In this document: positions 414 to 7,058 of the stretch, in pieces | Position numbering within the stretch: position 1 is the first letter of the stretch | Layout: every line of letters starts with the position of its first letter | Assembly (NCBI GenBank): GCA_951394045.1 | Contig: OX595994.1 | Coordinates: forward strand, 868,001 to 932,000 | DNA: 64,000 bases | Direction of reading: 5' to 3' | Source of the DNA: Nitzschia sp. DOCU1 | Taxonomy: Eukaryota; Bacillariophyta; Bacillariophyceae; Bacillariales; Bacillariaceae | Program-made: the position numbers and the translations under genes | The notes under the pieces: model-generated | Databases searched by the model: none | Told to the model about the DNA's origin: nothing | Seen by the model: only the letters and a program-made list of their open reading frames with translations

Positions 414-3400
414 ATGTGCGACGATGGCAATCCCACCACGTACTGGCAGACCAATGTCAGCGACGCCATCGCAATCGCAGGAATATTCGGTTATGACGAC
501 TGGGGTGACTATATTTTCGACTTTACTTTCCAACTTATCCATGAGGGCTGGTTTGACTACGTTGACCCTGGCCTTGCAACTCAGACATGGCTCTACGCCA
601 CTGCCGTTCCGGAACGCCACGAATGCGATGAATCTGCGGTTGTCAAAGCGTACTGGCAATTGCGCGGAATGCACGGTATCGTAGGTGCTCGGTGCTCGGG
701 TAGTTCGAGGTCCATCGCAAGGATTTCATCTCTTGAAAATGTTCCTCAAGTTTCACCGTCGTCCACGTCGTCTACATTGAGCGACAAGGAGGAGTTTCCT
801 GATTTCTCCCGCCTCGTTGCCCCAGATGATGGGCATGGAGAAGTCGGAGCCGTTGTGGCGATGCTCCGGTCGTTCGGTTGGAAACGAGTGAGCATTCTTA
901 GTACCAATAATCAGTTCTCCCAGGACTGGACCACCGAGTTCCGTGGGCTCTGGATAGAAGAAGAAGACGATGACGCCAGCGAAAGATGGAATGGTGTCGT
1001 AGTTCATTCCAACACCCTTCGACTGACGCAAGATGGATCCTTGGACGTGGATTTCGCAAGGCAGGCACTTGAGGCTGTACCCGCTGAAGACTCCCCAAAC
1101 AATTCAAGAATCATACTACTCGTGGCACACGATGGTGCGGCCTTTGAATTGCTGAAGCTTGCGGATTCCATGAACTTTCAACCTGGTTTTGGTACAATCT
1201 GGGTTGGTCCTTCAGCTTGGACTGGTAAAATCATACCAGATGATCTCGCGATGGGGAAGATATCAAACTTCCCAGGCTATGGCTATCTTGGCGTTACTCC
1301 TTTGCGATACAAGGGACAGCGGCAGTCGGACTTTCTGCAGTTGCTGCAGACCTGGCAAGCACAAAAAAATCGGGCTTCATGGGGTGGCGACAAGTTTCCA
1401 ACTTTTGCTGCGGAGACAGTAGACTCCATTTTAGCAATGACAACGGCACTATTGCGTACTCCAAAGGAGAAAAGAAACGACGGATTCTCTGTTGTTCGCG
1501 AACTTCGAAATCTTGAGTTCGAGGGCATGAGTGGTCCTGTTTCGTTTACAGAAAATGGGGATCGCGAAGATCCAAAGTTTGCCATCATTCAGGGAGCATA
1601 CGGGAACGATACTTGGGTGGAAATTGGTGCCACGGGAGTCGACGGAGTTTCTTCTTTCATAGATCTAAAGTTGGCTTGCTTTCCGGGTCTGACGTGCGGC
1701 GTCATCCCAAAGGATTCCAACCCCCTACCAAAGGACAAACTGGAAGGATGGGTACTCGGCACCATTATTCCCATCGCCATCCTATTGCTCGGCCTGGCAG
1801 CTAAGTATTGGGCAAGTACCCGGTCCAAACGAAAAATCAAGGCCGAGCTGAAAGCGTTCCGTGATTCGGTAGTTGCCACACGAGCCGTCAAGCAAATGTA
1901 CATTCCTTGGACTTCGTCGGAATTGAGTGGCGACAACCCCGTGATGAATTCAGAGACCGTGTCGTCGTTGCCACCTTCGCCTCCGCCACCGCAAGTGGAA
2001 TGGCATTGGCAAGAGACCCCATTCAAGATGAATTTGCACTTGGCTTGCGATGTCGCCGATTACCATGGTTGTTGGGTGAAGTATTCCAGCGAGAGTAACG
2101 CCAAGCTAGAGACGGCATACCAGCAAAGCAAAAAATTATGTTCGCCCCTGAAGGGCTATAGTGTGAACTTTGAAACCATGGAGCAGAAAAATGAGAGCAC
2201 TGGTTTTCCAAGGGCCGTGCGGCGCATTGTTGACGTCGCCAGTGATGCCACTAATCCTGCCGATGATGTCTGTACCTCTGGTAGCACTTGCGACATTGAT
2301 TATTCGGCTGCTCGCTATGGCACTCGGCTGCCGAAAGAAATCTGCAACGAGCCTCAAATGGTGCTTCTGCCAGGAGATATTGTCCAGGTCTCTAACAACC
2401 GGCCGGATGGCTTGGCATTTGGAACCAAGGTAACGCATCTCGTTGAATCTCGCATTTGCCTTCACCGACTCTATCTTCTCACATATATCCTTTCTTCCAG
2501 CTGTTCAGTGCCAACGAGGATCTCGAGAGGGAAATTCTTGCTTCACTGTCATCTAAGTCTTCAGAAGAGGAAGTGGCTTGTGTGACCGCCAATTCTGGTT
2601 GGTTCGAATTAGACGCTACAAGAGTTCCTAGCAGTGACGACTTGAAACCACTCAAAGCCAACGTCGGGGACACTGCAGTCCTGGATCCCCCTGACACGTG
2701 GGAAACGGTTGTCAATCCCACCGTCGCTCAACTTCACGAAATCAAAACGACCGACACCGAATACAATGGCCTGGCTAACGCCTTTTTGTCGACTTTGAGT
2801 CGCGATCGCGTGAAGATTCTCAAGATCCAAAGAGTGCAAAATCTGGCCATGTGGCAGTCTTATGTTGTCAAGCGGCAAACAATCTGCTATCGTGACAATG
2901 CCGATCCAACCGACAAGCGCGCTCTCGGAAGGGTTGAAAAGCGCTGGCTATATCATGGGACAAACGTCGAGATCTTGGACAAGATTCTCCAACAAGGCTT
3001 CAACCGGTCCTTTTGCGGTAAGAATGCCACCGTTTATGGCAAAGGAGTCTATTTCGCACGAGACGCTTCGTATTCGGTCAATCGAACGTATGCCGTCCCA
3101 GATCGTCAGGGTAACCAGTATATCATGGCATGTCGCGTTGTTGTTGGCGAATATTGCGTGGGCAAGCTCAATGCGATCACACCTGATGTCCGCGACGCAA
3201 AGACGCATACACTGTTTGACTCCACAGTCGACTTGCTTACGAACCCTTCCATTTTCGTTACGTATCACGATGCTCAGGTAAATAATAACGCTGAGGCGAT
3301 TGTTCAGCGCCGAGAGGAAAAGTCACTCACATTCGTTCCGTTCCCTCCCTCTTGACCTCCAGGCATATCCCGAGGTAAGCAAACCACCCCCGAGTTAAGT

Positions 3401-3503
3401 TTGCATGATAATGTCCGGAATCCATGTCTCAATTCGTCCTTCTTGCCCTGCTCTCGATCTTTTTGCATGAGTCAAGTACATCATCAAGTTCAAACAAATT
3501 TGA
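414..3503 (+). CDS. Receptor-like ADP-ribosyltransferase: ANF-type ligand-binding domain, TM, WWE, PARP catalytic domain
   Basis: Four exons (414-2429, 2501-3277, 3363-3374, 3477-3503) encode 943 residues. Residues 10-400 resemble the ANF/periplasmic-binding-protein type 1 receptor domain, with GARCSG, PQVSPSSTS and a FxRLVAPDD stretch. A hydrophobic segment at about 445-466 is followed by basic residues (SKRKIK), as in a type I membrane protein. Residues 525-605 look like a WWE domain, which in known proteins binds ADP-ribose units. The C-terminus is a PARP-type catalytic domain with LYHGT (His824), GKGVYFA (Tyr856) and NPSIFV (Ile923 where poly-ADP-ribosylating PARPs have Glu). This H-Y-I triad predicts mono-ADP-ribosylation. 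All splice sites are GT-AG and keep frame; exon 3 has only 12 bases. The spliced end, AYPEYIIKF, matches the usual PARP ending. The ATG at 414 gives no signal peptide, so the N-terminus is probably incomplete. Confidence 0.82.
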
Positions 3504-4004: not shown

Positions 4005-5072
4005 ATGAATGTTTCTCGGCGCAAACTACAACGCGGGTTGCCCATTCTGTCGCCAAATCATGGGCGAGTGCGATCTTTGAGTAGGATAAGCGGTTCGACA
4101 ACAAATATGTTTCGAGGTGTGTATCCTATTGTTGTCACACCGTTTTGCGATGACCCTGGGGAATCCATCGACTTTCCGAGCTTTCGACGATGTCTCTCGT
4201 TCCTGCATCAAACGGGCGTTTCGGGTGTTACCGTGGCAGGCGTCCTGGGCGAATCCAATCGATTGACGGACTGGGAACGACAAAGACTAGTTGAAACCGC
4301 CTCGGACGAGATTCGGCAAAGTGGCCACAAGCTCAAGTTGTGCGTGGGAACGACGCATACGGGAACTGCCGCCACAGTGGCACTGAGTCAAATGGCAAGA
4401 GACTGCGGTGCCGATGGAGTCATGATATCGCCAACCAAACCACAATTTGGAGCGCAGCCTTCAGACAATGATATTTTGCAACTATACACTCGGGTGGCGG
4501 AAGCGTGCCCGGATCTTTCTATCATTGTTCAGGACCTTCCGTCGCTCACAGGCGTTTACATGTCGACAAGTCTTTTGGCTCAAATCGCCAGCACCGTTCC
4601 TACCGTCGCCTCCATCAAATTAGAGTCTCCACCGACCATTCAACGAATCGAAGCACTTCATGAAAATGCACTTTTTCGAGAAAGTGGTTCTACAATACTA
4701 TGTGGTTTGGGGGCCTTGTATGCTGGCTTTGATTTGAAGCACGGAGTGGATGGGTTCATGACGGGCTTTGCCTTTCCAGAAATACTAGTCGCCATGATGA
4801 ATAAAGCAAAGGAACAGGACGAAGATGCTTACTTAAGCTTATATCGAAAATATCTGGATTTGATTGTCTTTGAGCAACAGCCTGGTGGACTTGCGATTCG
4901 AAAAGAAATCTATCGCCGGCGGAAGCTCATTGACAGTGGCGTCCTACGCAGCCCAGGCGGTGCGATTACTCCAATTTTACAAAAGGCGGTCGATGAGCAG
5001 CTGCACCGTTCCTTTCCTGGTATTGATCTCTCCAAACCAATACCAAGGGAGTATCTTATGGCACCCTACTAA
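4005..5072 (+). CDS. DapA/N-acetylneuraminate lyase family aldolase-like protein
   Basis: A single exon encodes 355 residues with a (beta/alpha)8 aldolase signature. The family start is FRGVYPIVVTPF at residues 36-47, the glycine loop is GVLGES at 79-84, and the Schiff-base lysine is in ASIKLE (Lys205). In dihydrodipicolinate synthase the loop reads GTTGE and the proton-relay Tyr sits in a YNVP-like motif. Here the loop lacks both Thr residues and the second motif reads QDLP (176-179), with no Tyr. The fold and lysine chemistry are therefore likely, but the lysine-biosynthesis reaction is not. The first 35 residues are Arg- and Ser-rich and could be an organelle presequence; a second Met at 35 sits right at the domain edge. 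Substrate unknown. Confidence 0.75.
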   Translation: MNVSRRKLQRGLPILSPNHGRVRSLSRISGSTTNMFRGVYPIVVTPFCDDPGESIDFPSFRRCLSFLHQTGVSGVTVAGVLGESNRLTDWERQRLVETASDEIRQSGHKLKLCVGTTHTGTAATVALSQMARDCGADGVMISPTKPQFGAQPSDNDILQLYTRVAEACPDLSIIVQDLPSLTGVYMSTSLLAQIASTVPTVASIKLESPPTIQRIEALHENALFRESGSTILCGLGALYAGFDLKHGVDGFMTGFAFPEILVAMMNKAKEQDEDAYLSLYRKYLDLIVFEQQPGGLAIRKEIYRRRKLIDSGVLRSPGGAITPILQKAVDEQLHRSFPGIDLSKPIPREYLMAPY

Positions 5073-5717: not shown

Positions 5718-6503
5718 TTAGGTGCCCTTGAACAATGGCCCAAACGTAACGAGCCAAAAGAATACATACGCCAGATAATATAGCCAGCTCACGTTAAAGC
5801 GAACAAACTGGCGGTAATTCCGTCGACCAATACAAGTCCCCATCCACACGCAGTGATGATCGTAGCCTGCAATGCACACATTACAATCGGGACAATGTGC
5901 CCCATCGGGTGGTTGGTAGACTTGACAAAAGTCACACCATCGCCATTGACTAGCTTCCGAGGACGAAACTGTGGCAGGCACTTGCTTGTGAAGGCAAATG
6001 CCGGGATCCCGTAGCGAAACATCGGTTAACAGGTAGGTGCTCGCCCCGAAAAAGATAAAGCAAAACACCACCGACCCAGGACCAAGAACCATGGCCTTAT
6101 TAATGCAAAAATGGGTCACCACTGCCAGGATCAGCCAAACACAAGTAGGACCGAACCACTGAGGACCTAGCACTCCCCAGCCAGAAGTTTGAAAGTATTC
6201 GGGAAAGAAGATTTGCATGTTTCCGATAGGCTGCATGTGAATCAATCCATTCAAATAGTCTTGCGGCGGTCCTTCCAGGGCATGCATTGCCGTGTTTGTA
6301 CCGGAGGATTCCCCATTACCGCGACCATTACCGCGACCCCCAGCACGCAATAAAGACCCCCCGCCCACTTCCTCTTCGTCTCCCGTGTCTAGTTCCATGG
6401 GTTCAATCTTTCGGCCGTTCGGCTGCTGACTGTCGTCGGGTCCCCCACTTGCGGGCATCTGCCCGTTCTCCATCTGTCCTATTGTGTCCAGCATATCCAT
6501 CAT
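5718..6503 (-). CDS. DHHC-type protein S-acyltransferase
   Basis: A single exon encodes 261 residues. The cysteine-rich domain runs from Cys190 to about 230 with CDFC, HCPDCNVC and the catalytic DHHC at 215-218, followed by the usual CxGxxNYRxF-like stretch. Such enzymes transfer palmitate from acyl-CoA to cytosolic cysteines, commonly at Golgi, ER or vacuole membranes. Two membrane spans lie before the domain (about 117-135 and 141-160) and one after (about 239-258). The protein stops right after this third span, whereas family members usually have a fourth span and a cytosolic tail. The N-terminal 75 residues are acidic and Gly-rich, without recognised motifs. The gene converges on the upstream aldolase-like gene. 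The enzyme assignment is firm; the substrate is unknown. Confidence 0.88.
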   Translation of the reverse strand: MMDMLDTIGQMENGQMPASGGPDDSQQPNGRKIEPMELDTGDEEEVGGGSLLRAGGRGNGRGNGESSGTNTAMHALEGPPQDYLNGLIHMQPIGNMQIFFPEYFQTSGWGVLGPQWFGPTCVWLILAVVTHFCINKAMVLGPGSVVFCFIFFGASTYLLTDVSLRDPGICLHKQVPATVSSSEASQWRWCDFCQVYQPPDGAHCPDCNVCIAGYDHHCVWMGTCIGRRNYRQFVRFNVSWLYYLAYVFFWLVTFGPLFKGT

Positions 6504-7058
6504 CTTTTCCAGGGCGTTCAGTAAATTTTTTCAATTCTAGAAACAGGATAAGTTCGCTTTATCAACAGGTAGACGTTGATGTATGATTTCGCCGAGCTTG
6601 AAACGCGAGAATACCACGAGAAAAGCCGAAGGGTCAGCAGAGGTCATTTTGAATTCGGCCATTGTCATCTATCCGAGCGGCCAATCCCCACTCCGACACG
6701 CGGAAGGAGAACGGCGAACTCTCTCAAGGACGGATATCTGCCCGCCAGTGTCCGAGACTTCGATCCCTTCGACTGGAACCACCATCCCACGTCACGCATG
6801 TCGGGGCGTCTTGCCGCCTCCCTCCATGCTGGGGACCACCCACCACCATTCTTTTTCCCTCCACTCCCACAATCTTTGTTTTCGTCGCGGATCTCTGCCT
6901 TCCAAAACGACGAAATCCGACATCATCTTTGTTCTTACAATTGTGTCTGCTGCAACTCTGCTTCTTGTCAAAGATAGACGAGACATTGTTACATAGCAAA
7001 CCAAACGATTGCCATCTATTGAAAGTCGCAGCGTTATTTCCAATACCTGTCTTCCATA
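6504..7058. other. Divergent promoter region
   Basis: This stretch separates the starts of the DHHC enzyme (minus strand) and the nucleolar RRM protein (plus strand), so it should carry both promoters. Several overlapping open frames of 90-140 codons cross it in different frames, none with a recognisable protein. No TATA element or repeat stands out. Confidence 0.45.

Follow-up and report, generated by a model that had tools for sequence, protein, structure and literature searches.

The 64,000-nucleotide stretch of Nitzschia sp. DOCU1 DNA analysed here (the window) carries near its beginning a gene that raises the question of whether one membrane protein can join an ANF-type ligand sensor to a PARP-type ADP-ribosyltransferase. 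The first-pass annotation, made from the letters alone, read the gene as an ANF domain, one membrane span, a WWE domain and a PARP domain in a single protein of 943 residues.

Gene structure and domain content

The gene occupies positions 414-3503 of the forward strand and has four exons and three GT..AG introns; the joined frame translates to exactly the 943 residues proposed. A Pfam scan of this protein found all three domains above their curated cut-offs and gave no cyclase domain, 7tm_3 region or macrodomain. Hydropathy recovered a single strong hydrophobic span, with the best 19-residue window at residues 445-463 (mean hydropathy 2.22). The features, by window position, are:

414..2429, + strand: exon 1, an open frame of 2016 bases (codons 1-672) encoding the ANF sensor, the membrane span, the WWE domain and the first part of the SH3-like domain
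468..1628, + strand: ANF/PBP1-type ligand-binding domain, residues 19-405 (Pfam ANF_receptor core 55-393, 2e-38)
1746..1811, + strand: transmembrane span, residues 445-466, by hydropathy
1812..1868, + strand: K/R-rich juxtamembrane stretch, residues 467-485, on the predicted cytosolic side (from the sequence and the family-wide K/R asymmetry)
1995..2231, + strand: WWE domain, residues 528-606 (Pfam 550-604, 1.4e-11, 45 bits against a cut-off of 21.1)
2331..2656, + strand: predicted SH3-like domain, residues 640-724, split by intron 1 (profile evidence)
2430..2500, + strand: intron 1, GT..AG, 71 nt, joining within the conserved AFGTK-L block
2501..3277, + strand: exon 2, the remainder of the SH3-like domain and most of PARP
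2756..3497, + strand: PARP catalytic domain, residues 758-942, exons 2-4 (Pfam 6.3e-25, 88.3 bits against a cut-off of 26.7)
2954..2956, + strand: triad His, residue H824
3050..3052, + strand: triad Tyr, residue Y856
3251..3253, + strand: third triad position, Ile and not Glu, residue I923
3278..3362, + strand: intron 2, GT..AG, 85 nt
3363..3374, + strand: exon 3, a 12-base micro-exon encoding AYPE of the PARP domain
3375..3476, + strand: intron 3, GT..AG, 102 nt
3477..3503, + strand: exon 4, YIIKFKQI and the stop

The ANF_receptor/PBP1 assignment comes from the window protein itself, and the fold was checked on the homologue P0001. Nine residues are invariant in the WWE region of 31 aligned homologues, and the window protein keeps all of them. 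Both the score of the catalytic domain and the presence of the triad His and Tyr place the protein in the PARP superfamily.

Just downstream of the receptor gene lies a dihydrodipicolinate synthase family gene (4005-5072, + strand), and a DHHC palmitoyltransferase reading frame is found at 5721-6530 on the - strand. An Rfam scan across the window gave no match. Elsewhere in the host genome (52 Mb in 63 contigs), one reading frame joins DUF6824 and WWE (L019, C14:148210-151428); a second WWE match with the same score, about 46 kb from it at C14:195973-196191, is perhaps a duplicate.

Support for a single gene

Because the ANF domain, the span and the WWE domain share one uninterrupted exon, the link from WWE to PARP is the only one that requires splicing. 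That link crosses an intron, as would be the case if two adjacent genes had been wrongly joined, and the homologues bear directly on this possibility. A search with the whole protein returned 52 homologues, the best of them with 47% identity across 99% of the query, and 26 of the 52 carry ANF, WWE and PARP according to the database's own Pfam table (18 with WWE before PARP, as in the window, and 8 with WWE last). P0004 and P0007 are MMETSP transcripts with all three domains, P0002 is from Cylindrotheca closterium and P0005 is from a Bacillariaceae MAG; P0001, of 958 residues, is encoded on a contig of 3011 bases that could hold little intron sequence. In an alignment with P0001, P0004 and P0007, the exon joins of the window gene fall in the gap-free conserved blocks AFGTK-L and YHDAQ/S-AYPE-Y, and the AYPE of the micro-exon is conserved in all three. 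The three-domain homologues, two of them from transcripts, and the position of the joins in conserved blocks thus indicate that the model is not mis-joined. Such an error is largely refuted, and we put its probability close to nil. The search for the same architecture in other genomes, proposed in the first-pass annotation, was also productive: a search with the C-terminal cassette added, among the matches listed, homologues of the same layout from Seminavis robusta, Nitzschia inconspicua and Cylindrotheca fusiformis.

A predicted SH3-like domain between WWE and PARP

The first-pass domain list was right in its four entries and lacked a predicted fifth. At about residues 640-724 the family has a conserved block of roughly the form G-D/Q-x-V/I-Q ... 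W-A-F-G ... G-W-F, in which L replaces the first W in the window copy. Eight family members were combined into a profile and compared with PDB sequences, which gave 27 rows up to an E-value of 10 (best 0.0037); nearly all of these we take to be SH3 domains, and the others include a DARPin, GAPDH and an unnamed cDNA. When single segments were scanned against Pfam, three of six gave only SH3 families, below cut-off (best 0.0028), and the other three, the window's own included, gave no match. A structure model predicted for P0058 (mean pLDDT 83.3) arranges the strands of the block in the SH3 order, with a helix inserted. The fold-search lists were filled by ANF or PARP, and it is on the profiles and the strand order of this model that we call the block SH3-like.

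Catalytic triad and predicted activity

The H-Y-I triad read in the first pass was recovered as H824-Y856-I923. We counted triad residues in 118 aligned rows, 28 of 146 having been dropped for gaps. The third residue is Glu in none of the 118, the His is kept in 117 and the Tyr in all; the HG and GKGVYFA motifs are invariant across 30 aligned proteins. With Ile in the third position, the window protein departs from the H-Y-E triad of poly-ADP-ribose polymerases, and since no H-Y-E occurs among the 118 rows either, mono-ADP-ribosylation is predicted. Among solved structures in the PDB, the catalytic domain is closest to those of PARP14 (1.3e-38), PARP15 and PARP10.

The missing Glu also fits a receptor whose PARP domain is catalytically dead and serves as a scaffold or ADP-ribose reader, as in plant RCD1, the signal passing through SH3 and WWE, which are both binding modules. 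PARP13 is a parallel for such a scaffold, and PARPs with a non-Glu triad may be inactive. RCD1-type WWE-PARP proteins are reported to be without transferase activity in the part of PMC4245714 that concerns them. However, the retention of His and Tyr and the invariance of both motifs would be unexpected in a scaffold, and we regard this alternative as rather unlikely.

Family and protein searches of the host genome, made exon by exon with the best candidates scored (a procedure that could miss a heavily split PARP), found no second PARP. The genome has three macrodomain matches and five ADP-ribosylglycohydrolase-family matches (two of the five adjacent, perhaps one gene), so that removal of ADP-ribose would be possible.

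Membrane topology

The sensor had been placed outside the membrane and the WWE-PARP part in the cytosol. Of 157 family proteins scanned, 135 have the span ahead of the cytosolic domains, and the K/R charge asymmetry predicts a cytosolic WWE-PARP part in 130 of these 135; positive charge after the span, family-wide, supports a C-terminus-in topology. The window gene model has no recognisable signal peptide of the cleavable kind expected in a type I receptor. The reading frame upstream of the gene stops at window base 34 (L002 4534), and between bases 34 and 469, with every ATG and GT-AG introns of at least 35 bases considered (25 of 27 in-frame joins listed), we found no convincing hydrophobic start; the nearest candidate, an ATG at 140 spliced to an acceptor at 410, is weak and putative.

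A gene model of this kind could instead describe an internal metabolite sensor whose ANF domain lies within the cell, either in the cytosol or in some internal compartment. Some N-termini in the family agree with this: among 88 N-complete proteins, 21 have at most 18 residues ahead of the domain and no signal-peptide-like start (the window protein and the transcript-derived P0004 are of this type), and 25 have longer leads that also are without such a start by a hydropathy rule (the transcript-derived P0007 among them). Many of the database models derive from metagenome contigs and may be truncated or given a wrong start. On the other hand, signal-peptide-like N-termini are present in 42 of the 88, including the close homologue P0001 and the transcript-derived P0179, P0181 and P0187 of a second family described below. 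Together with the charge asymmetry, and with related proteins that have CUB, EGF, LRR or PBP-type ectodomains, they make an internal sensor quite improbable. We infer that the sensor of the window gene faces outward; the topology first proposed is supported family-wide, and the signal peptide expected to accompany it is not recognisable in the window gene model.

One cassette behind many sensors

Our search with residues 525-943 found 598 proteins, 120 of which were listed. By Pfam entries, tallied by hand, these 120 of the 598 include 48 with ANF, 15 with CUB (5 of the 15 also NMT1-type), 1 with an NMT1-type domain alone, 3 with Peripla_BP_6 and no ANF, 3 with PBP_like_2, 2 with Cache, 2 with Bmp, 2 with EGF-type domains only, 1 with LRR and 1 with PF00595 (PDZ); 42 have none of these sensors. 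Direct scans found PBP_like_2 in P0109 (5.3e-37), dCache_2 in P0130 (4.1e-14), Bmp in P0134 (1.2e-16), LRR_8 in P0155 (5e-25) and CUB with NMT1 in P0139. One cassette is common to several sensor types. The first-pass view of the gene as one protein holds, and its scope was too small: the window protein belongs to a large family whose members carry different sensors.

In the cassette proteins P0061, P0062, P0067, P0122 and P0139, the ectodomain resembles NMT1/taurine-sulfonate-binding proteins, in some cases with CUB. The NMT1 match is below cut-off in P0062 and P0067, and P0061 (Cylindrotheca closterium) has a match at 1.1e-29 to TIGR01729, a model of taurine-binding proteins, but falls well short of the cut-off set for it. 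For these NMT1-type members the likeness suggests sulfonates as candidate cues.

Among the matches listed in the whole-protein and cassette searches, all organism-labelled rows are diatoms or Aureococcus anophagefferens, a pelagophyte. By layout, the scanned set of 157 (the window protein plus 156 homologues) comprises 114 with a span followed by WWE-SH3L-PARP, 7 with the cassette and no detected span, 14 without a PARP match and 22 with other combinations. N-terminal truncation is suspected in the 7 of 121 WWE-SH3L-PARP proteins that lack a span ahead of the cassette. We built a midpoint-rooted PARP tree from 51 hand-picked rows, in which 18 ANF and 11 non-ANF members of this first family are intermixed. 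Well-supported branches force at least four switches between sensor labels; in one case P0139 (NMT1/CUB) stands beside P0098 (ANF) at 100/99, in a run whose bootstrap had not fully settled. This intermixing suggests that sensors have been exchanged on a shared TM-WWE-SH3L-PARP cassette. The variety of other sensors among the relatives suggests that algae have an undescribed class of receptors at the cell surface.

A second family with terminal WWE

A second family (for example P0048, P0040, P0161 and P0166) has the order ANF, span, PARP and terminal WWE, and its PARP domain is of a different lineage. A search from P0048 (residues 440-921) gave 59 proteins including the query, among them the MMETSP transcripts P0179, P0181 and P0187, as well as a protein from Helicotheca tamesis. 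In the PARP tree its 15 rows form one clade (99/98), which groups with five WWE-PARPs without ANF, three of them without and two with predicted spans. The first family, with WWE before PARP, groups with mammalian PARP14, and the split between this pair and the second family with the other WWE-PARPs has support of 100/99 (100/100 in an earlier run), with Lemmus PARP14 as the one animal sequence.

In an ANF tree of 40 hand-picked rows, flagged by the program for long branches, a single clade (100/100) unites the ANF domains of the two PARP families and excludes nine others from the host genome. Members of the two families are intermingled in the best tree obtained, and no well-supported branch forces the mixing. 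The simplest reading of these sequence trees would be that related ANF domains were joined to two PARP lineages. Three of the nine other host ANF proteins were scanned, and all are ANF-7tm_3 proteins (class C GPCR type); L005 (C14), L010 (C2) and L011 (C12) have this architecture.

Proposed mechanism and significance

We consider it probable that the window gene encodes a single-pass receptor mono-ADP-ribosyltransferase, with signalling proposed to run from sensor to PARP. A small solute, probably amino-acid- or organic-acid-like, would close the two-lobed ANF domain outside the membrane. For the sensor, NCBIfam gives only a branched-chain amino-acid-binding match, below cut-off, and in the structure list of the homologue P0001, bacterial Leu-binding proteins rank level with mGlu and GABA-B. 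Closure would be passed as a movement through the single span into the cytosolic WWE-SH3-PARP cassette and would change the activity or placement of PARP, which would use NAD+ to attach single ADP-ribose units to itself or to partners. The WWE domain may read ADP-ribose-type marks, and the SH3-like domain may dock partners.

We lean, with less assurance, towards a broader reading in which diatoms and pelagophytes have receptor ADP-ribosyltransferases as one of their major receptor classes. The TM-WWE-SH3-PARP unit would stand behind ANF, taurine/sulfonate-binding-like NMT1 with CUB, PBP_like_2, Bmp, Cache, EGF and LRR sensors, ANF would have been joined a second time to the other PARP lineage, and solutes would directly write cytosolic mono-ADP-ribose. 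Should the cassette prove active and under ligand control, ADP-ribosylation would take its place beside phosphorylation and cyclic nucleotides as a direct output of receptors, and would do so in ecologically important algae. Since candidate ligands are suggested by the sensor domains, the sensing of solutes and bacterial neighbours by diatoms becomes directly testable.

We know of no receptor that has ADP-ribosylation as its direct output. Our search of the open-access literature, a scope that leaves subscription papers and bioRxiv preprints mostly outside, found no description of a receptor-coupled PARP; the conserved receptor-enzyme layout is real and is described nowhere that we found in that literature. 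In the relevant portion of PMC2964712, diatoms appear to be without PARPs, and the corresponding portion of PMC4245714 gives at least two for Thalassiosira oceanica and seemingly none for T. pseudonana, with no mention there of receptors.

Comparison with known systems

All the parts are known, and the order of sensor, span and enzyme is that of enzyme-linked receptors; it is the output that differs. Receptor guanylyl cyclases of the NPR-A/GC-A type have an ANF-type sensor, a single span and a cytosolic enzyme output. The window protein shares this plan, whereas by Pfam it has no cyclase domain and would signal through a PARP-type transferase accompanied by a WWE and a predicted SH3-like domain. 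Class C GPCRs (GABA-B, mGlu) share the sensor fold, as seen in P0001, and ANF-7tm_3 proteins occur in the same genome; the window protein differs in its single span and enzyme output, and the ANF clade of the PARP families stands apart from the nine host ANF domains. With the Clade 3 PARPs (PARP10, PARP14 and PARP15, and for the WWE-PARP order PARP7, PARP11 and PARP12) it has in common WWE before PARP and a non-Glu triad, and among solved structures its catalytic domain is closest to those of PARP14, PARP15 and PARP10; unlike them it spans the membrane, has a ligand-binding ectodomain and a predicted SH3-like domain, and by Pfam lacks a macrodomain.

PARP16 is not known to have an ectodomain sensor. 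It is the only human PARP known as membrane-associated according to the section of PMC10789625 that covers it, which also describes a membrane anchor and a cytosolic catalytic domain. In these it resembles the window protein, whereas its transmembrane region is C-terminal, as stated in part of PMC4245714. The ecto-ARTs (ARTC) are likewise ADP-ribosyltransferases at the membrane, but their catalytic domains, of R-S-E type, face the ER lumen or the outside, as described in the ARTC portion of PMC10789625.
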